From a virus, in the IMG/VR virus record IMGVR_UViG_3300042892_002410, positions 1 to 61,327 of that record: DNA of 61,327 bases. One strand, 5' to 3'. Made by a program: the position numbers and the translations under genes. Within the stretch, counting starts at the first letter, position 1. Every line of letters begins with the position of its first letter. This document shows positions 2,117 to 59,629 of the stretch, in pieces. Below the pieces are notes generated by a model. The model made no database searches. It had not been told where the DNA came from and worked only from the letters and a program-made list of their open reading frames with translations.

Positions 2117-2383
2117 ATGAACCGTACAATAACTCTGCAAATTTTTGAAGATCCTGGTCATGGTTGGGCGCGGTTTCCAAAAGCACGCCTAACCAAACTG
2201 GGCATTGCTAATCAGATATCTTCTTATTCGTATCAAAAGGGTGTCAATGCGTTTTTGGAAGAAGATTGCGATCTTAGCACATTGATAAGTTCACTCACTA
2301 AGCTGGGCTATGATGTCAAGTTTAAAACTAATCATACTGATCGTCAAAGCAAAATCCGCAGTTATCAATCATACAAGGCTTGA
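2117..2383 (+). CDS. small hypothetical protein, 88 aa
   Basis: AAGGAG precedes the ATG. Basic protein with a glycine/aromatic segment (EDPGHGWARFPKARL) and a lysine-rich C-terminus; no recognised family. The next promoter's -35 overlaps its last codons, showing how tightly transcription units are packed here. Confidence 0.65.
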   Translation: MNRTITLQIFEDPGHGWARFPKARLTKLGIANQISSYSYQKGVNAFLEEDCDLSTLISSLTKLGYDVKFKTNHTDRQSKIRSYQSYKA

Positions 2384-2408
2384 CAATTAGTAAAATTAAT
2401 GCTATAAT
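2380..2408 (+). promoter_or_regulatory. sigma70 promoter of the exonuclease operon
   Basis: TTGACA 2380-2385, 17-bp spacer, TATAAT 2403-2408. The -35 overlaps the stop codon of the preceding gene. I see no other strong promoter before 7181, so this one probably also serves the mini-gene array at 3685-7171. Confidence 0.85.
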
Positions 2409-2435: not shown

Positions 2436-3443
2436 ATGAAATACGCACTCATTGACACAGCAAACACCTTCTTTCGTGCCCGGCATGTGGCCAGTCGCAA
2501 CACTGACACTTGGGAAAAGATTGGCATGGCATTGCACTTGACATTTGCCAGTGTCAATCAAATTGTAAGAAAGTTTGGAGTTGACCATGTGGTGTTCTGC
2601 ACCGAGGGCAGGTCATGGCGCAAGGACCACTATTTGCCCTACAAGAAAAATCGCATAGTTGACGAACAATCTCAGACCCAAGCTGAGGTTGAAGAAAATA
2701 CTATGTTTTGGGAAACGTATGATATGTTCATTACCTATCTCAAAGAAAAAACCAATTGTAGCGTCCTTAGACAAGAACGGGCAGAAGCCGATGATGTCAT
2801 CGGCAGATTTGTACACTTACATCCCAATGATCAAATTTATATTATTAGTAGCGACACTGATTACATCCAGCTTATATCTGATAATGTCTTCCAATATAAT
2901 GGCATCTCCAACCAACTTATCACACCCCAGGGCTACTTTGACGATAAAGGCAAATTAGTCATTGACAAGAAAACTAAGGAGCCCAAGCTGTTGGGTGATC
3001 CTCAGTGGCACTTGTTTATGAAATGTATGCGTGGTGACAGTAGTGACAATGTGTTCAGTGCATATCCGGGAGTACGTGAGAAAGGTACCAAGAATAAAGT
3101 TGGCTTGACTGAGGCCTATGCTGATCGTACCAAACAAGGATTTAATTGGAACAATGTCATGCTGCAAAAGTGGACAGATCACCATGGCGTAGAGCATCGT
3201 GTTAAGGATGATTATGAGCGCAATCGCATACTGATTGACTTGACCGCACAGCCTGATGAAATCAAGCAATTGGTTGATGATGCTATTATTAATGGAGTAC
3301 GCACTACCTCTACCACACAAGTGGGCATGCACTTTATGAAACTGTGTGGCAAATATGAACTTACTAAAATCAGTGAACAAGCGGAGACATATGCAAAATG
3401 GTTAAACTCGCCTTACGTAGGTTGCTTAACAAATTCAAAATAG
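2436..3443 (+). CDS. 5'-3' exonuclease / flap endonuclease (T4 RNase H-like)
   Basis: FEN-family nuclease; in T4-like phages this enzyme removes RNA primers and flaps from lagging-strand fragments. Seen: ALIDTAN at the N-terminus (D7), EADDVIGRF (residues 117-125), SSDTDYIQL (138-146) and RGDSSDNV (199-206), which are the acidic metal-binding motifs in their usual order, followed by a helix-hairpin-helix-like region (GVREKGTKNKVG). At 335 aa its length is usual for the phage branch. TTTAGGATCAC precedes the ATG. The following gene probably starts 11 nt after its stop. Confidence 0.9.
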   Translation: MKYALIDTANTFFRARHVASRNTDTWEKIGMALHLTFASVNQIVRKFGVDHVVFCTEGRSWRKDHYLPYKKNRIVDEQSQTQAEVEENTMFWETYDMFITYLKEKTNCSVLRQERAEADDVIGRFVHLHPNDQIYIISSDTDYIQLISDNVFQYNGISNQLITPQGYFDDKGKLVIDKKTKEPKLLGDPQWHLFMKCMRGDSSDNVFSAYPGVREKGTKNKVGLTEAYADRTKQGFNWNNVMLQKWTDHHGVEHRVKDDYERNRILIDLTAQPDEIKQLVDDAIINGVRTTSTTQVGMHFMKLCGKYELTKISEQAETYAKWLNSPYVGCLTNSK

Positions 3444-3454
3444 GATATACTCAG

Positions 3455-3688
3455 ATGCGCAGAGATACACTAAAGGATGCATTCTACGGTGGACTAACCG
3501 AGTTACTCAAAAATCCCAACATATACTACACCAGTTCAATAGGCAAAGAGTACAGTAAGTTTACTGCAAAGGGTAGGGAAGAAATTGTAGAGTGGATAGA
3601 AAATCAGGCAAGAGACATCGCTGAGGCGGAAGAACGGTTCCTTGATGAACGTGCTAAGCAACTGGTATTGGACGAGCTAACACGATGA
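3455..3688 (+). CDS. conserved phage protein, 77 aa
   Basis: Start placed at 3455 (MRRDTLKDAFYGGL), preceded by AGGA about 10 nt upstream. An in-frame ATG at 3398 would give 96 aa but overlaps the exonuclease by 46 nt. I recall short phage proteins with the same opening and a YYxSSxGxEYS motif. The C-terminal half is a charged helix (AEAEERFLDERAKQL). The stop overlaps the first mini-gene of the LRW array (ATGA). Confidence 0.7.
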   Translation: MRRDTLKDAFYGGLTELLKNPNIYYTSSIGKEYSKFTAKGREEIVEWIENQARDIAEAEERFLDERAKQLVLDELTR

Positions 3689-3879
3689 ATCATTCTGACA
3701 CCTGGCATAAAATTTGTGATTACTACTATGATAATATACATTGGGAAATTGAAACCAAATGCATGGGCATTGAGACTTGGTTAAAAAAGGAACACGGTGC
3801 AGTATTCAATGCCGCTATTTCAGAGTTTATATTTGATGATGACAAAAAGAAAAGTTGGTTTATATTGAGGTGGTCATAA
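3685..3879 (+). CDS. LRW-array protein 1, 64 aa
   Basis: First array member; ATGA overlap with the upstream gene. Two helix segments (HKICDYYYDNIHW, GIETWLKKEHG) precede FIFDDDKKKSWFILRWS. The closing codons contain GAGGTGG, placed as ribosome-binding site for member 2. Function unknown. Confidence 0.75.
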   Translation: MNHSDTWHKICDYYYDNIHWEIETKCMGIETWLKKEHGAVFNAAISEFIFDDDKKKSWFILRWS

Positions 3880-4118
3880 TGAGCGTAAGGATTTCTATTA
3901 ATGAGCGTACATACTATAAAGAATTCAAGCAAATATGTGATTGGATGATTGAAAAATTTGGTAAACCTGAAGAAGAAGTTACTTGGTTTTGGTGTACCCA
4001 ATCCCACGAAGAAACCTGTTCCGGTAAAGATTATACAGAATCTACAATCGACCACGGAGTAAGAATTTGGAAAAATGCTCCCAACGATATCATGGTAACT
4101 GCATTGAGGTGGAGTTGA
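3879..4118 (+). CDS. LRW-array protein 2, 79 aa
   Basis: ATG overlaps the previous stop (TAATG), with GAGGTGG upstream. The helix ICDWMIEKFG is followed by Trp-rich strands (VTWFWC) and ends NDIMVTALRWS. It has two cysteines (CTQSHEETC), but these are not conserved across the family, so metal binding is doubtful. Confidence 0.75.
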   Translation: MSVRISINERTYYKEFKQICDWMIEKFGKPEEEVTWFWCTQSHEETCSGKDYTESTIDHGVRIWKNAPNDIMVTALRWS

Positions 4119-4119
4119 C

Positions 4120-4419
4120 ATGACCGGCAAAGAATTAAAAGTTACCAAGATGGACAACAGGCATACCGGCATTGGTATGTTTAGCCATTATGTGGTACAG
4201 TCACCGCGTGGATTCCCTTCGTTCAATGCAAAGATCAAGTCCTATATTAAATTTAGGCAGTGGTTCCATGATTCACTGGGACCTGGAATGGAAAGAGAAT
4301 TTGCACTACAACTTGATGAATACTGCACTGCCAAATGGGCCTGGCATTCAGTGGACGGTCTTAAGAGAATATATATGACACCAGAAGCATACACACTATT
4401 TGCACTCACTTGGCTATAA
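4120..4419 (+). CDS. LRW-array protein 3, 99 aa
   Basis: Starts 1 nt after the previous stop. Longer N-terminus than its neighbours (VTKMDNRHTGIGMFSHYVVQ), then FRQWFHDSLGPG and AYTLFALTWL. The LRW has drifted to LTW, and the junction to member 4 accordingly lacks the AGG core. Confidence 0.75.
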   Translation: MTGKELKVTKMDNRHTGIGMFSHYVVQSPRGFPSFNAKIKSYIKFRQWFHDSLGPGMEREFALQLDEYCTAKWAWHSVDGLKRIYMTPEAYTLFALTWL

Positions 4420-4420
4420 C

Positions 4421-4648
4421 ATGAGTGTGATAAAAAAAAGCAACGATGAATATGTGGTTCACATCAAGTGGGACAATGATGCTGACCATGACAAGGAACA
4501 AGAGTATTGGAATGACACTTGCATCTGGGCTATAGAGAATTTTGGATTACCAGGTCATAGGTTCGCCACCAAAGCCACAAGTGAATATATGGATTTTTAT
4601 TTTCAGAATGAACAGGATGCCATATTGTTTTCACTGAGATGGTTATAG
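4421..4648 (+). CDS. LRW-array protein 4, 75 aa
   Basis: Start placed at 4421, 1 nt after the previous stop. Canonical layout: charged N-terminus, CIWAIENFGLPG helix, FYFQNEQDAILFSLRWL end. The final codons give GAGATGG ahead of the next gene. Confidence 0.75.
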   Translation: MSVIKKSNDEYVVHIKWDNDADHDKEQEYWNDTCIWAIENFGLPGHRFATKATSEYMDFYFQNEQDAILFSLRWL

Positions 4649-4654
4649 CATTGT

Positions 4655-4906
4655 ATGAAAGTTGGTTTTTATGATAACTCTGATTATGCCTATTGGGTGG
4701 AAAACCCCAGTAAACTACGGTTTACTGACATAGAGGACTATCATGATGTCATGGCTCGCAACATAGAAATATTTGCTTGGGTAGAACAAACCTTTGGCGC
4801 CAAGAATTTAACTGAGTGGGGAACTGGTCGTTGGCAGGCCAGCAATAACAAATACTATTTCAAATATGAAAGCGACCGCACTTTGTTTATATTGAGGTGG
4901 TCATGA
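4655..4906 (+). CDS. LRW-array protein 5, 83 aa
   Basis: 6-nt gap from member 4. IFAWVEQTFGAKN helix, W-containing strands, KYYFKYESDRTLFILRWS end. Its last codons (TTGAGGTGG) are the apparent ribosome-binding site of member 6, which starts within its stop (ATGA). Confidence 0.75.
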   Translation: MKVGFYDNSDYAYWVENPSKLRFTDIEDYHDVMARNIEIFAWVEQTFGAKNLTEWGTGRWQASNNKYYFKYESDRTLFILRWS

Positions 4907-5085
4907 GAGTTACTGTACCCTACGATCCATTTTGGAAGCCGTTGGCCTGGGCTAAGAAACACTGCCCAAGTTATATTACTAACGATGTTCATAAAAATAA
5001 AAACGAATCTGGACAAGGTGTTCTTATTGATTACTTTTTTAGCGAAGGCAAAGACGCTATGGTTTTTATGCTGAGGTGGCAATGA
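4903..5085 (+). CDS. LRW-array protein 6, 60 aa
   Basis: ATG within ATGA of the previous stop; an upstream in-frame GTG at 4897 is less likely. One of the shortest members: PLAWAKKHCPSY, then DYFFSEGKDAMVFMLRWQ. It shows that the helix plus YF-DAxxFxLRW core is the minimal unit. Confidence 0.75.
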   Translation: MRVTVPYDPFWKPLAWAKKHCPSYITNDVHKNKNESGQGVLIDYFFSEGKDAMVFMLRWQ

Positions 5086-5285
5086 AAGCCGATTGGTGTA
5101 ATATTCCTGTCAGTGTGCCTTGGTATAGATACGAGCATTTACGTAATCTGCAGATATGGTTGCTGGATAACGTAGATGAACACAATTGGGATTGGGGTGG
5201 TGCTGACACTAAAAATCCTGACAATAGAGTTTATTACTTTGCTCGTCACCAAGACGCTACCATGTTTGCCCTGAGGTGGTTGTGA
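5082..5285 (+). CDS. LRW-array protein 7, 67 aa
   Basis: ATGA overlap. LQIWLLDNVDEHNWDWGG, then YYFARHQDATMFALRWL. Very tryptophan-rich. The codons for LRW give GAGGTGG just before the GTG of member 8. Confidence 0.75.
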   Translation: MKADWCNIPVSVPWYRYEHLRNLQIWLLDNVDEHNWDWGGADTKNPDNRVYYFARHQDATMFALRWL

Positions 5286-5581
5286 CCATAGTGACCCGCA
5301 ATCAATTTGCTGAACATTGGAACACAGTGAAGCCTGGTTTAGGTGATGCTGACAGTGGTCTGTGGGCTTATGAGAGAGCCTATGGCCCTGAATCGCAGTG
5401 GTTCATATGTATCAAACCAATACGATTGTCACTGTACAGTGCAAATCAACAACAATTTTGGGCCTGGTGTAAACGGCATTGTCCCAGCGGCGTAAGTTGT
5501 TACAGCGCCAGTGATGACGAGGAGTGGTGGGGATTTGTCAATAGTGATGAAATTATGCTTTGGTTGTTGAGGTGGGTATGA
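5282..5581 (+). CDS. LRW-array protein 8, 99 aa, GTG start
   Basis: The GTG at 5282 overlaps the previous TGA (GTGA) at the same geometry as neighbouring ATGA starts, so I prefer it to the GTG at 5276. N-terminal extension, then FWAWCKRHCPSGVS and EEWWGFVNSDEIMLWLLRWV. Confidence 0.7.
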   Translation: MTIVTRNQFAEHWNTVKPGLGDADSGLWAYERAYGPESQWFICIKPIRLSLYSANQQQFWAWCKRHCPSGVSCYSASDDEEWWGFVNSDEIMLWLLRWV

Positions 5582-5967
5582 GTAAACTTGAAATAAACGC
5601 AATCTTTAAGTTCAAAGGAAAGTATGGCGACCATTACATGCCCTGTGGTTTAAACATCGTTGATAAACTCTGGTGGCGATTCATGCCCGGCGCGGTGATC
5701 AATGTGGCATGGCCAAGAGGAGACATTGTAGTAGATCACAGTGATCCACGTTGGCGTGACATGGGTGGTGCTGTGTGGGTAAATTTAGGTTTTAGTGCTG
5801 ACCCCAATGATCATTATAGACCTTGGTTAGAACAACATGTAGGCAAGCAAGGATGGGATTGGAACTGGGGTATGGGCGGGATGGACGCTACAGAAAATCG
5901 TCTAACCATAAAGATTAGGCAAAAGTATGCAAAGTATGCTACAATAGCAGCATTGAACTGGTCATGA
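5578..5967 (+). CDS. LRW-array protein 9, 129 aa
   Basis: Longest family member. The N-terminal 80 residues form an extra strand-rich segment (NVAWPRGDIVVDHSDPRW, MGGAVWVNLGF), followed by the array core YRPWLEQHVGKQGWDWNWG and a degenerate end (ATIAALNWS). ATGA overlaps on both sides. Confidence 0.7.
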   Translation: MSKLEINAIFKFKGKYGDHYMPCGLNIVDKLWWRFMPGAVINVAWPRGDIVVDHSDPRWRDMGGAVWVNLGFSADPNDHYRPWLEQHVGKQGWDWNWGMGGMDATENRLTIKIRQKYAKYATIAALNWS

Positions 5968-6167
5968 AAGAATTACCCTATACTGTTAACGCTATCCAAC
6001 CAAACTACGATGCCCAAAAATGGTGCATTAGTTATATTGGTCCAAGATGGAGCGTACTTGCCAGAACTGGTGAGTGGACTTGCTTTTGGCGCGGCCCAGA
6101 AAAACGATATCAATGGTATTTTAAAAATGAGAACGATGCTATAATGTTTGCGTTGATGTGGCTATGA
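5964..6167 (+). CDS. LRW-array protein 10, 67 aa
   Basis: ATGA overlap. AQKWCISYIGPRWSVLAR, WTCFWRGPEKRYQWYF, NENDAIMFALMWL. The Arg of LRW is Met here (ATG for AGG), which weakens the ribosome-binding site for the next gene. Confidence 0.75.
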   Translation: MKELPYTVNAIQPNYDAQKWCISYIGPRWSVLARTGEWTCFWRGPEKRYQWYFKNENDAIMFALMWL

Positions 6168-6376
6168 TAGCTGAACAAGTAACAATGCCAAAGCTGGAGT
6201 ATTATAAAATATATGCTATGGAAAAATGGTGCTACAACCGCTTTGGTCAATCAGCCCGTGAACTGGATCAAGTGAGCAACTCTGCCACTTGGTGCCTGCG
6301 TTATAAATTTGGCGATACTATATGGTACTTTGCCAACGCCAAAGATGCACTTATGTTTAGACTGGTGTGGCTATGA
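6164..6376 (+). CDS. LRW-array protein 11, 70 aa
   Basis: ATG within the preceding stop. MEKWCYNRFGQSARELDQ helix, then TIWYFANAKDALMFRLVWL. Same helix/strand/helix plan as its neighbours. Confidence 0.75.
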   Translation: MIAEQVTMPKLEYYKIYAMEKWCYNRFGQSARELDQVSNSATWCLRYKFGDTIWYFANAKDALMFRLVWL

Positions 6377-6756
6377 CACTGCTGTTGAGTAGAAAAATCA
6401 TCATGCGTGAATATGATTTCATTAAGGAGCTCCAGCCGGTCCCAATGAAGTCAGGTGGACACTATTCGCTGTATGACAGAGCATACTTTACTCCAATCAC
6501 CAAAGATGGGTTAGAGAAAGAATATCTGATTCATGTGCTAACTGAAAAAGTAAGCGGTGATTCGTGGAAGCCAACTCACACCCCTGCCAAGTATCTGTAT
6601 GATATGAAGAAAAGATTATACAGCGAAAGTTATGTAAAATGGCAATTTCGATTCTGTGATGATGGTTACATATGGATTAGATATAACAAAAATACTCCTG
6701 AAACTAAACTGGGTTGGGGAATATTTGAAATGGACATCAAAACAAAATATCCATGA
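6373..6756 (+). CDS. hypothetical protein inside the LRW array, 127 aa
   Basis: Overlaps its neighbours by 4 nt on both sides like an array member but lacks the FxLRW end, finishing WGIFEMDIKTKYP. An internal ATG at 6403 (MREYDF) could be the real start. It may be an unrelated insertion or a member diverged beyond recognition. Confidence 0.6.
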   Translation: MTLLLSRKIIMREYDFIKELQPVPMKSGGHYSLYDRAYFTPITKDGLEKEYLIHVLTEKVSGDSWKPTHTPAKYLYDMKKRLYSESYVKWQFRFCDDGYIWIRYNKNTPETKLGWGIFEMDIKTKYP

Positions 6757-6983
6757 TCACATTACCAGAAAATCAGTGGCGCAAAATACTGGCGCAGCTA
6801 AAACAAGACTACTCTGATAACCCCTCAGTGTTTCTGGTGAGGAACACAATGAAACGGGTACTGGGATTTACTGTGCGTAATCATGAACCCAGCTGGCATG
6901 TGAAAACTGGATTCACGCACACGGTGTCACTTGACTTTTTTGACGAACAAAAGAAAACAATGTTTATACTAAGATATCTATGA
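6753..6983 (+). CDS. LRW-array protein 12, 76 aa
   Basis: ATGA overlap. The N-terminus WRKILAQLKQDYSDNPSVF differs from the family, but it ends LDFFDEQKKTMFILRYL, a clear variant of the C-terminal motif. Confidence 0.7.
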   Translation: MITLPENQWRKILAQLKQDYSDNPSVFLVRNTMKRVLGFTVRNHEPSWHVKTGFTHTVSLDFFDEQKKTMFILRYL

Positions 6984-7171
6984 GCAGGCGCGTAATACAC
7001 CATCACAGGCTTATGTTAAACTCAGCCAAGGAATCAGTTGAACACATCAAGTGGTGTCGTAGAAATTTGGGTGAGCGGGGAACTGATTGGGATTTTTCCG
7101 GATCAATACACTTAGACATAATGATATACACTGAAAAATACGTTCCATTTTATATGCTTATATTCGGCTAA
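6980..7171 (+). CDS. LRW-array protein 13, 63 aa
   Basis: Last array member. HIKWCRRNLGERGTDWDFSG matches the family helix, while the end (YVPFYMLIFG) has lost LRW. That loss fits the idea that the LRW codons are kept where a downstream start needs them, since the next gene has its own promoter and ribosome-binding site. Confidence 0.65.
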   Translation: MSRRVIHHHRLMLNSAKESVEHIKWCRRNLGERGTDWDFSGSIHLDIMIYTEKYVPFYMLIFG

Positions 7172-34804: not shown

Positions 34805-35289
34805 TGAAACAGAAATTTATAGACTTGTACATGAACTGGGCCCGCAGTGCTGCAAAGTTAAGCCATGCACGAAGATTGCAAGTGGGCGCAGTTATAGTCA
34901 AGGACGACACTGTTATCAGCTACGGCTACAATGGTATGCCAGCTGGCTGGGATAACAACTGCGAGGATGTATTATCAACTTACGACGAACGTGACACTCA
35001 CTCAATGGGTGATTGGCAATACGATGAGTCTACAAAGAAATTTTCTAGACTAAAAACCAAGCCAGAAGTGTTACACGCTGAAATGAACAGTCTGATGAAA
35101 TTGGCTAAAAGTTCAAGTTCGGGTAGTCAAGCATCCATGTTTGTAACACACTCACCCTGCTTAGATTGTGCCAAGGGAATACACCAAGCTGGTATCAAGC
35201 AAGTCTTTTACCAAGAAGATTACCGAGACAGTGCAGGGATAGAATTTCTCAGAAGGTCCAATGTTGAGGTCACTAAGTATGAAGCTTAA
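34804..35289 (+). CDS. deoxycytidylate (dCMP) deaminase family, 161 aa
   Basis: Converts dCMP to dUMP for dTTP synthesis. HARRLQVGAVIVKDDTVISY, GYNGMPAGWDNNCED, zinc motif VLHAEMN and HSPCLDCAKGIH (H-A-E and P-C-x-x-C). ATG in the preceding TGA. Length fits the phage enzyme. Confidence 0.9.
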   Translation: MKQKFIDLYMNWARSAAKLSHARRLQVGAVIVKDDTVISYGYNGMPAGWDNNCEDVLSTYDERDTHSMGDWQYDESTKKFSRLKTKPEVLHAEMNSLMKLAKSSSSGSQASMFVTHSPCLDCAKGIHQAGIKQVFYQEDYRDSAGIEFLRRSNVEVTKYEA

Positions 35290-35473
35290 CTACGAAACCG
35301 TACTTGATGCGAAACTGGGTGAGCTGGGTCCATTGATGGAATGGTGCAAGAGAAATTGCAGTGACAGCTGGAGAGTGAGTGTTACAGAAGAGGCTGGTGA
35401 CTTGGCTGGCATTTATAAATTCTACTTTCAGTCAGAGAAAGATTTTATAAATTTTTTAGTTTGGAAAAAATGA
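35279..35473 (+). CDS. LRW-family relative outside the array, 64 aa
   Basis: Starts 11 nt inside the deaminase end. LMEWCKRNCSDSWRVSV, YKFYFQSEKDFINFLVWKK: same helix, strand and C-terminal helix as the 3685-7171 array, with LVW for LRW. Evidence that the family moves or persists as single genes too. Confidence 0.7.
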   Translation: MKLNYETVLDAKLGELGPLMEWCKRNCSDSWRVSVTEEAGDLAGIYKFYFQSEKDFINFLVWKK

Positions 35474-58102: not shown

Positions 58103-58250
58103 GCAATGTTAAGTTGAGTGACTCACCCAATTCCGCATAGCACTTCAGTCGTACATCTCAAGCACACTCACCAAGTTTATTTCTAGGTTTAAGTAAAATA
58201 GCACACTGGACACATGATGTTCAGTGTCATTTACCTTAAGGAAAAATAAA

Positions 58251-58838
58251 ATGGCTGATATGTTAACAATAGATCCGTTCTTCGTCTTAACCGGACAAGT
58301 TCATGATGTAAGAGAAAAAGTTTCAGATAGTATCTTTGAAAACTACAAACTACAAGTAGCACAAACAAACGACATTAATAATCGTGCAATGCAAGTTGCA
58401 TTAAACAAATCCACTGCATTGTCTGATTTAAAAGCAGCGGCGAGCAAAGGTGTATTGGAAACAATGTTAGCCGCAGCCCGCACTGATGCTGCTATTGGTC
58501 AAACTTCTGCTGCTGTACAACGTAGTGTGGCCGGTGCTGCTATTGAACAACAGTTCGTGACAATGCAAGAAGGCGAAAAAACACGTGGCTTAGCCAACGC
58601 ATTGAATACACAAAACTTGAACACTGCATTGATTAATACCAATGTTGCCTTCGCTGGCCTAAACACATTGTATGGTGGATTGGGAGTTGCATACGGCGGT
58701 GCAGTTGGTGCAGCACAAGTTGCACAAACTAACAGTGCAGTAAATGCATTGAACAGTGCTATTTCTAACCAGCGTTTAATCAACACTGGCGACATGGCAA
58801 ACACAACACAAACTAGTACTCCAACTAGTATCAACTAA
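58251..58838 (+). CDS. duplicated 195-aa protein, copy 1
   Basis: AAGGAAAAATAAA before the ATG; an in-frame TTG at 58224 is unlikely. MADMLTIDPFFVLTGQVHDV, SDSIFENYKLQVAQTNDINN, long Ala-rich helix, then a Gly/Tyr segment (YGGLGVAYGG) and a conserved tail (AISNQRLINTGDMANTTQTS, TPTSIN). Helix content suggests a rod-like virion or scaffold protein. Copy 2 follows 203 nt downstream. Confidence 0.7.
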   Translation: MADMLTIDPFFVLTGQVHDVREKVSDSIFENYKLQVAQTNDINNRAMQVALNKSTALSDLKAAASKGVLETMLAAARTDAAIGQTSAAVQRSVAGAAIEQQFVTMQEGEKTRGLANALNTQNLNTALINTNVAFAGLNTLYGGLGVAYGGAVGAAQVAQTNSAVNALNSAISNQRLINTGDMANTTQTSTPTSIN

Positions 58839-59041: not shown

Positions 59042-59629
59042 ATGGCTGATATGTTAACAACTGATCCTTTCTTCGCATTAACTGGTCAAATCCAGGGCGT
59101 AAGAGAAAAAGTCTCTGATAGTATCTTTGAAAACTACAAACTACAAGTAGCGCAAACAAACGATATTAACAATCGTGCTATGCAAGTTGCATTACACGAT
59201 GCAACAGCACTAGCTGATCTAAAGCAAGCAACTAGCGAAGGCACCCTACAGACTATGTTGGCTGCTGCTCGTACCGATGCTGCTATTGGTCAAACTTCGG
59301 CTGCTATACAGCGTAGTATTGCTGATGCTGCTATCTCACAACAACGTTTAACTATGGAGCAATCCGAAATTACTCGTGGTTTAATCAACGCATTGAATAC
59401 ACAAAACTTGAATACAGCATTAATCAACACCAATGTTGCTTACTCCGGTCTTGGCGTGCAATACGGTGGTTTAGGTCTTGCATACGGTGGTGCTGTAAGT
59501 GCTTTCCAAAGCGCAAGCACAAATAGTGCATTAAATGCATTGAACAGTGCAATATCAACTCAAGGTCTAGTTAACACTGGCACCATGACTGGTACTACAC
59601 AAACTTCAACACCAACAAGCATTAATTAA
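59042..59629 (+). CDS. duplicated 195-aa protein, copy 2
   Basis: Same length and order as copy 1: MADMLTTDPFFALTGQIQGV, SDSIFENYKLQVAQTNDINN identical, tail AISTQGLVNTGTMTGTTQTS, TPTSIN. The middle differs at many positions. AGGAAAATAATAAA lies before the ATG. Whether it has its own promoter is unclear; the terminator at 58862 separates the copies. Confidence 0.7.
   Translation: MADMLTTDPFFALTGQIQGVREKVSDSIFENYKLQVAQTNDINNRAMQVALHDATALADLKQATSEGTLQTMLAAARTDAAIGQTSAAIQRSIADAAISQQRLTMEQSEITRGLINALNTQNLNTALINTNVAYSGLGVQYGGLGLAYGGAVSAFQSASTNSALNALNSAISTQGLVNTGTMTGTTQTSTPTSIN

Follow-up and report, generated by a model that had tools for sequence, protein, structure and literature searches.

A chain of diverged small Trp-rich genes in a jumbo-like phage locus, with a C-terminal motif that appears to double as the next gene's ribosome-binding site

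Fourteen consecutive plus-strand genes occupy positions 3685-7171 of the DNA analyzed here (the window: 61,327 nt, positions 1 to 61,327 of IMG/VR virus record IMGVR_UViG_3300042892_002410), and 12-13 of them are members of one protein family according to their ORFs and profiles. The initial annotation had described a 14-gene array at this location, and all 14 ORFs are present. The array (g1 to g14), the features preceding it, and a family member elsewhere in the window are as follows.

2380..2408, + strand: perfect sigma70-type promoter, TTGACA-N17-TATAAT (consensus match only), upstream of both the flap endonuclease gene and the array
2436..3443, + strand: phage 5'-3' exonuclease / flap endonuclease (phrog_107), with which the unit begins
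3398..3688, + strand: g0, 96 aa, non-member; ATGA overlap with g1; L067 ortholog at the equivalent place
3685..3879, + strand: g1, family member, tail FILRWS (TTG AGG TGG); orthogroup 17
3879..4118, + strand: g2, family member, tail TALRWS (AGG TGG)
4120..4419, + strand: g3, family member (weak on its own), tail FALTWL
4421..4648, + strand: g4, family member; predicted beta-beta-alpha-beta-beta-alpha, pLDDT 84.7
4655..4906, + strand: g5, family member, tail FILRWS (TTG AGG TGG TCA TGA)
4903..5085, + strand: g6, family member; L067 ortholog 52% identical
5082..5285, + strand: g7, family member, tail FALRWL (CTG AGG TGG)
5282..5581, + strand: g8, family member, GTG start, tail WLLRWV (TTG AGG TGG)
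5578..5967, + strand: g9, longer relative (129 aa), tail AALNWS; ortholog L206:5767-6144
5964..6167, + strand: g10, family member; predicted beta-alpha-beta-beta-alpha, pLDDT 89.2, pTM 0.76
6164..6376, + strand: g11, family member, tail FRLVWL
6373..6756, + strand: g12, 127 aa, within the chain, non-member; orthologs within the L067 and L213 arrays
6753..6983, + strand: g13, family member, tail FILRYL (AGA TAT)
6980..7171, + strand: g14, family member, degenerate tail; L067 ortholog 59% identical
35279..35473, + strand: solo family member outside the array, MKLNYETVLDAKLGELGPLMEWCKRNC...FINFLVWKK, profile E 9e-6; start codon picked by eye inside ORF 35261-35473

Ten of the 13 internal junctions overlap, nine by 4 nt (eight ATGA, one GTGA) and one as TAATG, and the overlapping stop and start codons by which termination-reinitiation coupling is judged are found at these ten. 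The claim that the genes overlap by ATGA or TAATG does not extend to the other three junctions, which are gapped (1 nt at g2/g3 and at g3/g4, 6 nt at g4/g5). The view of the array as one coupled block is supported; the gene after g14 starts 60 nt away. A single promoter had been placed at 2380. The site there matches the consensus perfectly, and no other perfect TTGACA-N17-TATAAT site lies between it and 9740, but the flap endonuclease gene comes first after it, which makes the array the distal part of that gene's unit. Perfect sites of this type number 19 in the window, as compared to 0.13 expected, and the array is probably expressed early from its perfect host-type promoter. The nearest isolate homologs of the flap endonuclease belong to PA5oct-like jumbo phages (49%).

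At least 12 of the 14 genes had been said to share a common plan, and 12 do end in (F/W/A)xL-x-(W/Y); g14 ends in FYMLIFG and g12 (6373-6756) lacks the motif. A near absence of DNA identity, also claimed, holds for most of the sequence but not for the C-terminal 55 nt, which are 62-71% identical among six copies. Family proteins are ~60-100 aa long and Trp-rich, with a mean net charge of -1.7. Near-invariant positions in the profile are W, F, D, A, F, L, R, and W, and no conserved catalytic-looking residues are seen in it. In leave-one-out profiles, g4, g5, g6, g7, g10, g11, and g13 beat 1000 of 1000 full shuffles and g1, g2, g3, g8, g9, and g14 beat 989-999 of 1000. Thirteen of the 14 genes beat at least 989 of 1000 shuffles, and g12 fails (211/1000). 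A tail-less profile was also built, trained only on sequences from outside the window and cut short by nine residues at the C-terminus. By this profile g2, g4, g5, g8, g10, g11, g13, and g14 beat 300 of 300 shuffles and g7 beat 299; g3, g6, and g9 were weaker (296-297 of 300), and g1 and g12 failed on their own. Despite this failure, g1 has clear orthologs in other loci. Recovery of most members without the tail means that the family is more than an artefact of the motif.

The predicted family fold, beta-alpha-beta-beta-alpha, was confidently modelled for g10 and g4. These two diverged orthogroups give one shared core at pLDDT 89 and 85, so that structure prediction for two members returned a common fold and not unrelated folds. 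In the g10 model, the C-terminal motif sits in the last helix. No curated family model in Pfam, PHROGs, or NCBIfam covers the array family, a PDB sequence search gave no solved-structure family match, and a PADLOC search for defence genes gave only two single-member matches. Foldseek comparison of the g10 and g4 models to the PDB yielded no match with E<0.1, and RRM, KH, and DCoH were not confidently matched. The loose likeness of the g4 model to DCoH / pterin carbinolamine dehydratase (1uso; prob 0.93, TM 0.6, E=0.15, 11% identity) was not counted as homology. The same predicted fold is seen in BFVD proteins of uncultured Caudovirales (e.g. A0A6J5LGV9; prob 0.99-1.00 for the first 10 matches) and in A0A2L0UZT1 of Atu_ph07 (prob 0.72), a phage that the profile recovers too. 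Proteins of both kinds are unnamed and undescribed, without assigned function.

Sampled loci contain 674 family members at E<1e-3, compared to none in reversed or shuffled sets. Copy number ranges from 3 to 63 per record, the richest record being a single 417 kb contig with 63. Isolates also carry members: Sinorhizobium phage Phosso has 48, Agrobacterium phage Atu_ph07 has 6, and Pseudomonas phages PA5oct and Paride have 3 each. By these counts, the family is a large, previously unnamed superfamily of jumbo-like phages, spread over many uncultured ones. A tblastn search with g10 and representatives of three orthogroups found no match in 50,697 isolate phages, unlike the 65-row profile, which reached PA5oct, Atu_ph07, and Phosso. 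The profile finds no members in RaK2, 121Q, GAP32, XacN1, SCTP-2, T4, P-SSM2, HTVC008M, phiKZ, S-PM2, CcrColossus, Kaldavass, G, or TIN2, and these 14 phages double as a specificity control. A g4-type alignment has no relative in 84,980 bacterial and archaeal genomes, and therefore no host inference is possible. Because isolate members are often solo and without the RW tail, chaining is a trait of one branch and not of the whole family.

The Leu-Arg-Trp codons TTG-AGG-TGG contain GAGGTGG, a predicted Shine-Dalgarno (SD) sequence for the next gene, and "LRW" therefore appears to be dual-coding. It had been described as a conserved protein motif; because part of this C-terminus is also the next gene's ribosome-binding site, its conservation does not reflect the protein alone. 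Codon tests were performed on loci chosen by other proteins, since loci picked by the AGG motif biased the codon statistics. At overlapping junctions (n=138), the median share of synonymous versions that were as strong was 0.033, with 59% of junctions at <=0.05. Where there was no overlapping start (n=92), the median was 0.487 and 10% were at <=0.05. Arg was encoded by AGG in 67 of 88 cases at overlapping junctions, as compared to a background of 7%. Codon bias toward the SD was thus seen only where the next start overlaps, and the SD itself is present in the LRW codons at such junctions and absent from the others. That this signal is stronger than usual is only indicative, because the control set of non-family overlapping genes includes spurious ORFs. 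In the case of g4, viral contigs yielded 271 confirmed matches for its orthologs. Orthologs of g4 that lack an overlapping start keep FxL, and their tails drift to LTCG, LARG, or LAQG. The same was seen across junctions without such a start, where R drifts, as does W in one orthogroup, and DAxxFxL is kept.

Orthogroups are under strong purifying selection, with a median dN/dS of 0.175 and no pair above 1. This supports the long-standing selection proposed in the initial annotation; its divergent Trp-rich fold with many retained variants is likewise borne out by the profiles, the two models, gene order, and dN/dS. A "variable interaction surface" does not hold within a gene, as purifying selection acts strongly on every orthogroup and each is kept across phages. 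The sequences suggest many different conserved binders rather than one hypervariable binder. Concordance of gene order is 0.99 at 60-80% identity and 0.56 below 45%, and 29 distinct cases of seamless joined/separated junction pairs were found. Only directly joined junctions were kept in this count, other apparent insertions being mostly genes missed by the profile. Order scrambles over time, and single genes are gained or lost precisely at the ATGA junction. An identity shift at a gene boundary is expected from any whole-gene indel and is no proof of homologous recombination at the junction.

We consider it about an even chance that these chained, exchangeable genes encode small, early-expressed binders without enzymatic activity, each having a conserved partner of its own. 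A ribosome ending one gene would reinitiate at the next gene's overlapping ATG, aided by the GAGGTGG in the Leu-Arg-Trp codons of the gene being ended. The short junction would permit whole genes to be gained, lost, or reordered, possibly by recombination there, while both neighbors stay intact. Each orthogroup would most likely act alone, its small product binding one particular, conserved partner from host or phage. The likeliest setting would be host takeover or counter-defence, and host or anti-defence targets are plausible. Somewhat more tentatively, the array may be a recombinase-free gene cassette system in which F-x-L-R-W serves as protein helix, next ribosome-binding site, and homology for swapping. 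If so, phages could put together and rearrange chains of genes for small binders with expression unbroken.

The main rival to independent binders is a heteromeric complex. The members would be subunits of one hetero-oligomer (ring, filament, or scaffold), with overlap coupling setting the stoichiometry. This would fit because genes coupled by overlaps in other systems frequently code for parts of a single complex, short overlaps being 4.5-8-fold enriched among heteromeric complex genes (PMC10666635). The common fold with a Trp-bearing C-terminal helix, as modelled for two members, and the individual conservation of every orthogroup also agree with it. However, a copy number of 3 to 63 per record, scrambled gene order, single-gene gain or loss between close relatives, and many solo members make a complex unlikely. 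By analogy with RRM/KH-type alpha/beta folds, the members could be RNA- or DNA-binding regulators; in Foldseek, g10 weakly resembles KH and RRM domains and g4 weakly resembles DCoH. Every PDB match has E>0.1, however, and the proteins are acidic on average (net charge -1.7) with neither a conserved basic patch nor an RNP-like motif in the profile, and we regard this as improbable. That unrelated small genes converged on LRW for GAGGTGG, the common C-terminus being a ribosome-binding site alone, is very improbable although the downstream start strongly shapes codon choice: members are found without their last nine residues, DAxxF sits upstream of the SD, and chain-less isolates retain DAxxFxL. 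Such convergence is refuted as a full explanation by the tail-less profile and is true for the Arg codon. Recent tandem duplication has the tandem arrangement and a precedent in the very similar gene arrays of phages G and 121Q (PMC5646251) in its favor but is refuted for this array, as the initial annotation had held, by 6-28% protein identity to g1, orthologs common to distant phages, DNA repeats confined to C-terminal ends, and the absence of profile matches in G or 121Q.

Bacillus phage G and Escherichia phage 121Q carry tandem arrays of >30 very similar genes, read as tandem duplication (PMC5646251), and phage G also has ~35 zinc-ribbon copies (PMC7824862). These are likewise jumbo phages with many copies of one small protein, whereas the members here are strongly diverged and individually conserved, and belong to a family whose profile is absent from both. 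The SPO1 host takeover module (PMC6873191), a set of 26 early genes, most of them small, whose products act on varied host processes, is a similarly dense small-gene cluster behind host-type promoters and a model for a possible role of the array. Small genes behind an early-type promoter are found here as well (the promoter by consensus only), but they share one predicted fold and an embedded ribosome-binding site. The dual-coding LRW, the extent of the superfamily in jumbo-like phages, and purifying selection with turnover at the ATGA junction are new here. This unnamed family, which accounts for dozens of genes in certain giant phages, has no Pfam, PHROGs, or NCBIfam entry and so makes up a sizeable part of phage dark matter, and its members in culturable phages (Phosso, PA5oct, Paride, Atu_ph07) make function directly testable. 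Gene pairs that overlap and are coupled by termination-reinitiation (PMC6728339, PMC10666635) share with the array the ATGA/TAATG overlaps and an SD inside the upstream gene. In those systems coupling is a property of individual pairs, whereas here the site appears fixed in a conserved C-terminal motif and chains reach up to 16-18 genes, offering a testable rule for building and reshuffling small-protein arrays in which every gene is still translatable.

An array of 14 genes (g1 to g14) is carried on the 61,327 bases of this IMG/VR virus record, together with the other features listed here.

3685 to 7171, + strand: array of 14 genes
6373-6756: g12, a non-family gene found at the same place in the chain in three phages (also L067:13449-13838 and L213:7615-8001, both in fetched viral loci)
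35279-35473: lone member of the family; it overlaps a deaminase-like gene at that gene's end
58224-58838 and 59042-59629: neighbouring paralogous genes of ~200 aa each (MADMLT-DPFF-LTGQ...), apparently a duplication
696, 1795, 2059, 2380, 9740 and 25281, and 44858 and 46799 on the - strand: example sites of perfect TTGACA-N17-TATAAT promoters

The initial annotation held that all array genes overlap by ATGA or TAATG. This applies to ten of the 13 internal junctions (nine by 4 nt and one TAATG), but two others have a 1-nt gap and one a 6-nt gap. The C-terminal plan it described for at least 12 genes was borne out: the C-terminal motif, (F/W/A)xL-x-(W/Y), ends 12 of the 14, is degenerate in g14 and is absent from g12. 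At the usual junction the motif codons (T/C)TG-AGG-TGG are followed by an overlapping ATGA, and the anti-Shine-Dalgarno is complementary to GAGGTGG.

A synonymous-codon test was performed on loci picked without reference to the AGG motif. At overlapping junctions (n = 138) pairing was far stronger than in synonymous variants of the same codons, with a median fraction of 0.033 and 59% at <=0.05. Family genes without an overlapping start were near random (median 0.487; 10% at <=0.05; n = 92), and non-family overlapping genes from the same loci, a control that includes spurious ORFs, displayed little bias (median 0.365; 5%; n = 404). AGG accounts for 67 of 88 Arg codons at overlapping junctions as compared to a 7% background, and an overlapping start raises the frequency of AGG (p = 0.0008), R (p = 0.003) and W (p = 0.015). 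In close orthologs of g4 that have lost the overlapping start, FxL is kept and the tail reads LTCG, LARG, LAQG, LVCG or LRCG. Together, this codon bias and tail drift indicate that the protein's needs preserve DAxxFxL, those of translation preserve AGG, and W is under both constraints.

Most array members were distinguishable from their own shuffles with leave-one-out profiles. Because the common tail might reflect a ribosome-binding site rather than homology, profiles were also tested with the last nine residues cut off, window sequences kept out of training and 300 shuffles. All 300 were beaten by g2, g4, g5, g8, g10, g11, g13 and g14, 299 by g7, and 296-297 by g3, g6 and g9; g1 and g12 were not separated from shuffles in this test. 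The expectation that a profile would recover the other members thus held for most of them. An iterated profile found 674 members in ~30 sequence groups across the fetched viral loci, and zero matches in reversed or shuffled copies of those loci. Relatives outside the window were found for most window genes, including g4 (271 confirmed matches), g6 and g14 (52% and 59% identity in L067) and g9 (in L206).

AlphaFold models of g10 and g4, built from alignments of their relatives, share a beta-alpha-beta-beta-alpha core (mean pLDDT 89.2 and 84.7), with the last helix formed by the motif DAxxFxLRW; for these two genes a common core is therefore predicted, not the unrelated folds that would have spoken against the initial annotation. 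Neither model matched a PDB structure at E<0.1, and many uncharacterised phage proteins in a viral model library were matched at high probability. The near-invariant positions (W, F, D, A, F, L, W) are structural core, not an active site. Family proteins are slightly acidic, and their Trp content is 5.4% vs 1.6%.

The nearest isolate homologs of the window's flap endonuclease (49% identity) are PA5oct-like jumbo phages. PA5oct groups ligase, ClpX, Hsp20 and ClpP-like genes in one region, and the window, read by eye, carries all of these too. Several uncultured contigs contain arrays with 12-18 members. The family profile A9 matched 63, 21 and 17 times in contigs of 417, 344 and 352 kb, and among isolates it gave 48 matches in Sinorhizobium phage Phosso, 6 in Atu_ph07 and 3 each in PA5oct and Paride; zero members were found in 14 other phages, including RaK2, 121Q, T4, phiKZ and G. 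Tails in the 417 kb contig and Phosso are mostly FKLxW(G), with AGG absent, and PA5oct members end in DALMFMLYFS or ALMFKLQFG. These tails indicate that the AGG-type chain is a trait of one branch. PA5oct members' record entries lack the mass-spectrometry note present for many PA5oct virion proteins, which weakly hints that they are non-virion proteins.

The 63 members of the 417 kb contig (G008, 416,714 bases, the contig of L192) lie on both strands with the tail FKLTWGG, whose codons TGG-GGA-GG may offer an alternative ribosome-binding site at some junctions. In Phosso (PV764938; L345, L346) the 48 members form several ATGA-overlapping clusters, some beside tRNA genes, and those inspected are annotated hypothetical. 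Further LRW-tailed arrays in L153, L169 and L199/L109 (e.g. L109:5994-7146), with bodies strongly unlike the main family, are possibly more diverged branches.

Median dN/dS was 0.175, with none above 1 (orthologs 60-92% identical; pairs non-independent). Close relatives share their full gene order, with a concordance of 0.99 at 60-80% identity; below 45% identity the order is near random (0.56). In 29 distinct cases a gene pair joined by ATGA in one contig lies 100-1200 nt apart in a relative, and in the printed cases the separating segment is mostly one whole additional family gene. Compared with the left junction, identity is 0.91 up to the stop and 0.3 past it; compared with the right junction, it climbs from 0.4 to 0.7 across the last 20 nt and to 0.83 beyond. 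These alignments show seamless turnover of gene units; the recombination mechanism is outside their reach, because whole-gene indels necessarily change at a gene boundary.

Large tandem arrays in jumbo phages are already known (PMC5646251, PMC13282480), and internal Shine-Dalgarno sites at gene overlaps are a general feature (PMC6728339). Neither the family, its size and its culturable-phage members nor the fixed dual-coding junction was described in the literature searched, which mostly excluded subscription journals.

The window holds 19 perfect TTGACA-N17-TATAAT promoters against 0.13 expected, many of them embedded in a longer common sequence, TTGACAGTAAATCC..TTGGGTGTATAAT, pointing to a putative phage-wide promoter family. 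Transcription of the array would likely start at the perfect promoter at 2380, judged by consensus match alone, and ribosomes would then be passed along the chain from each gene to the next. In other genomes, experiments found overlapping gene pairs usually coupled, and in E. coli removal of an internal Shine-Dalgarno often cost 60-90% of reinitiation (PMC6728339). The output would be a set of small, differing, individually conserved proteins without catalytic features. In the reading we favour, the proteins bind independently of one another and act early on targets in the host or its defences. A hetero-oligomer is the principal alternative, given that complex subunits are enriched for short gene overlaps (PMC10666635); however, copy number varies between phages, gene order is scrambled and solo members exist, all of which argue against a fixed complex. 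For independent binders with an early host- or defence-directed role, the SPO1 takeover module (PMC6873191) provides a model.
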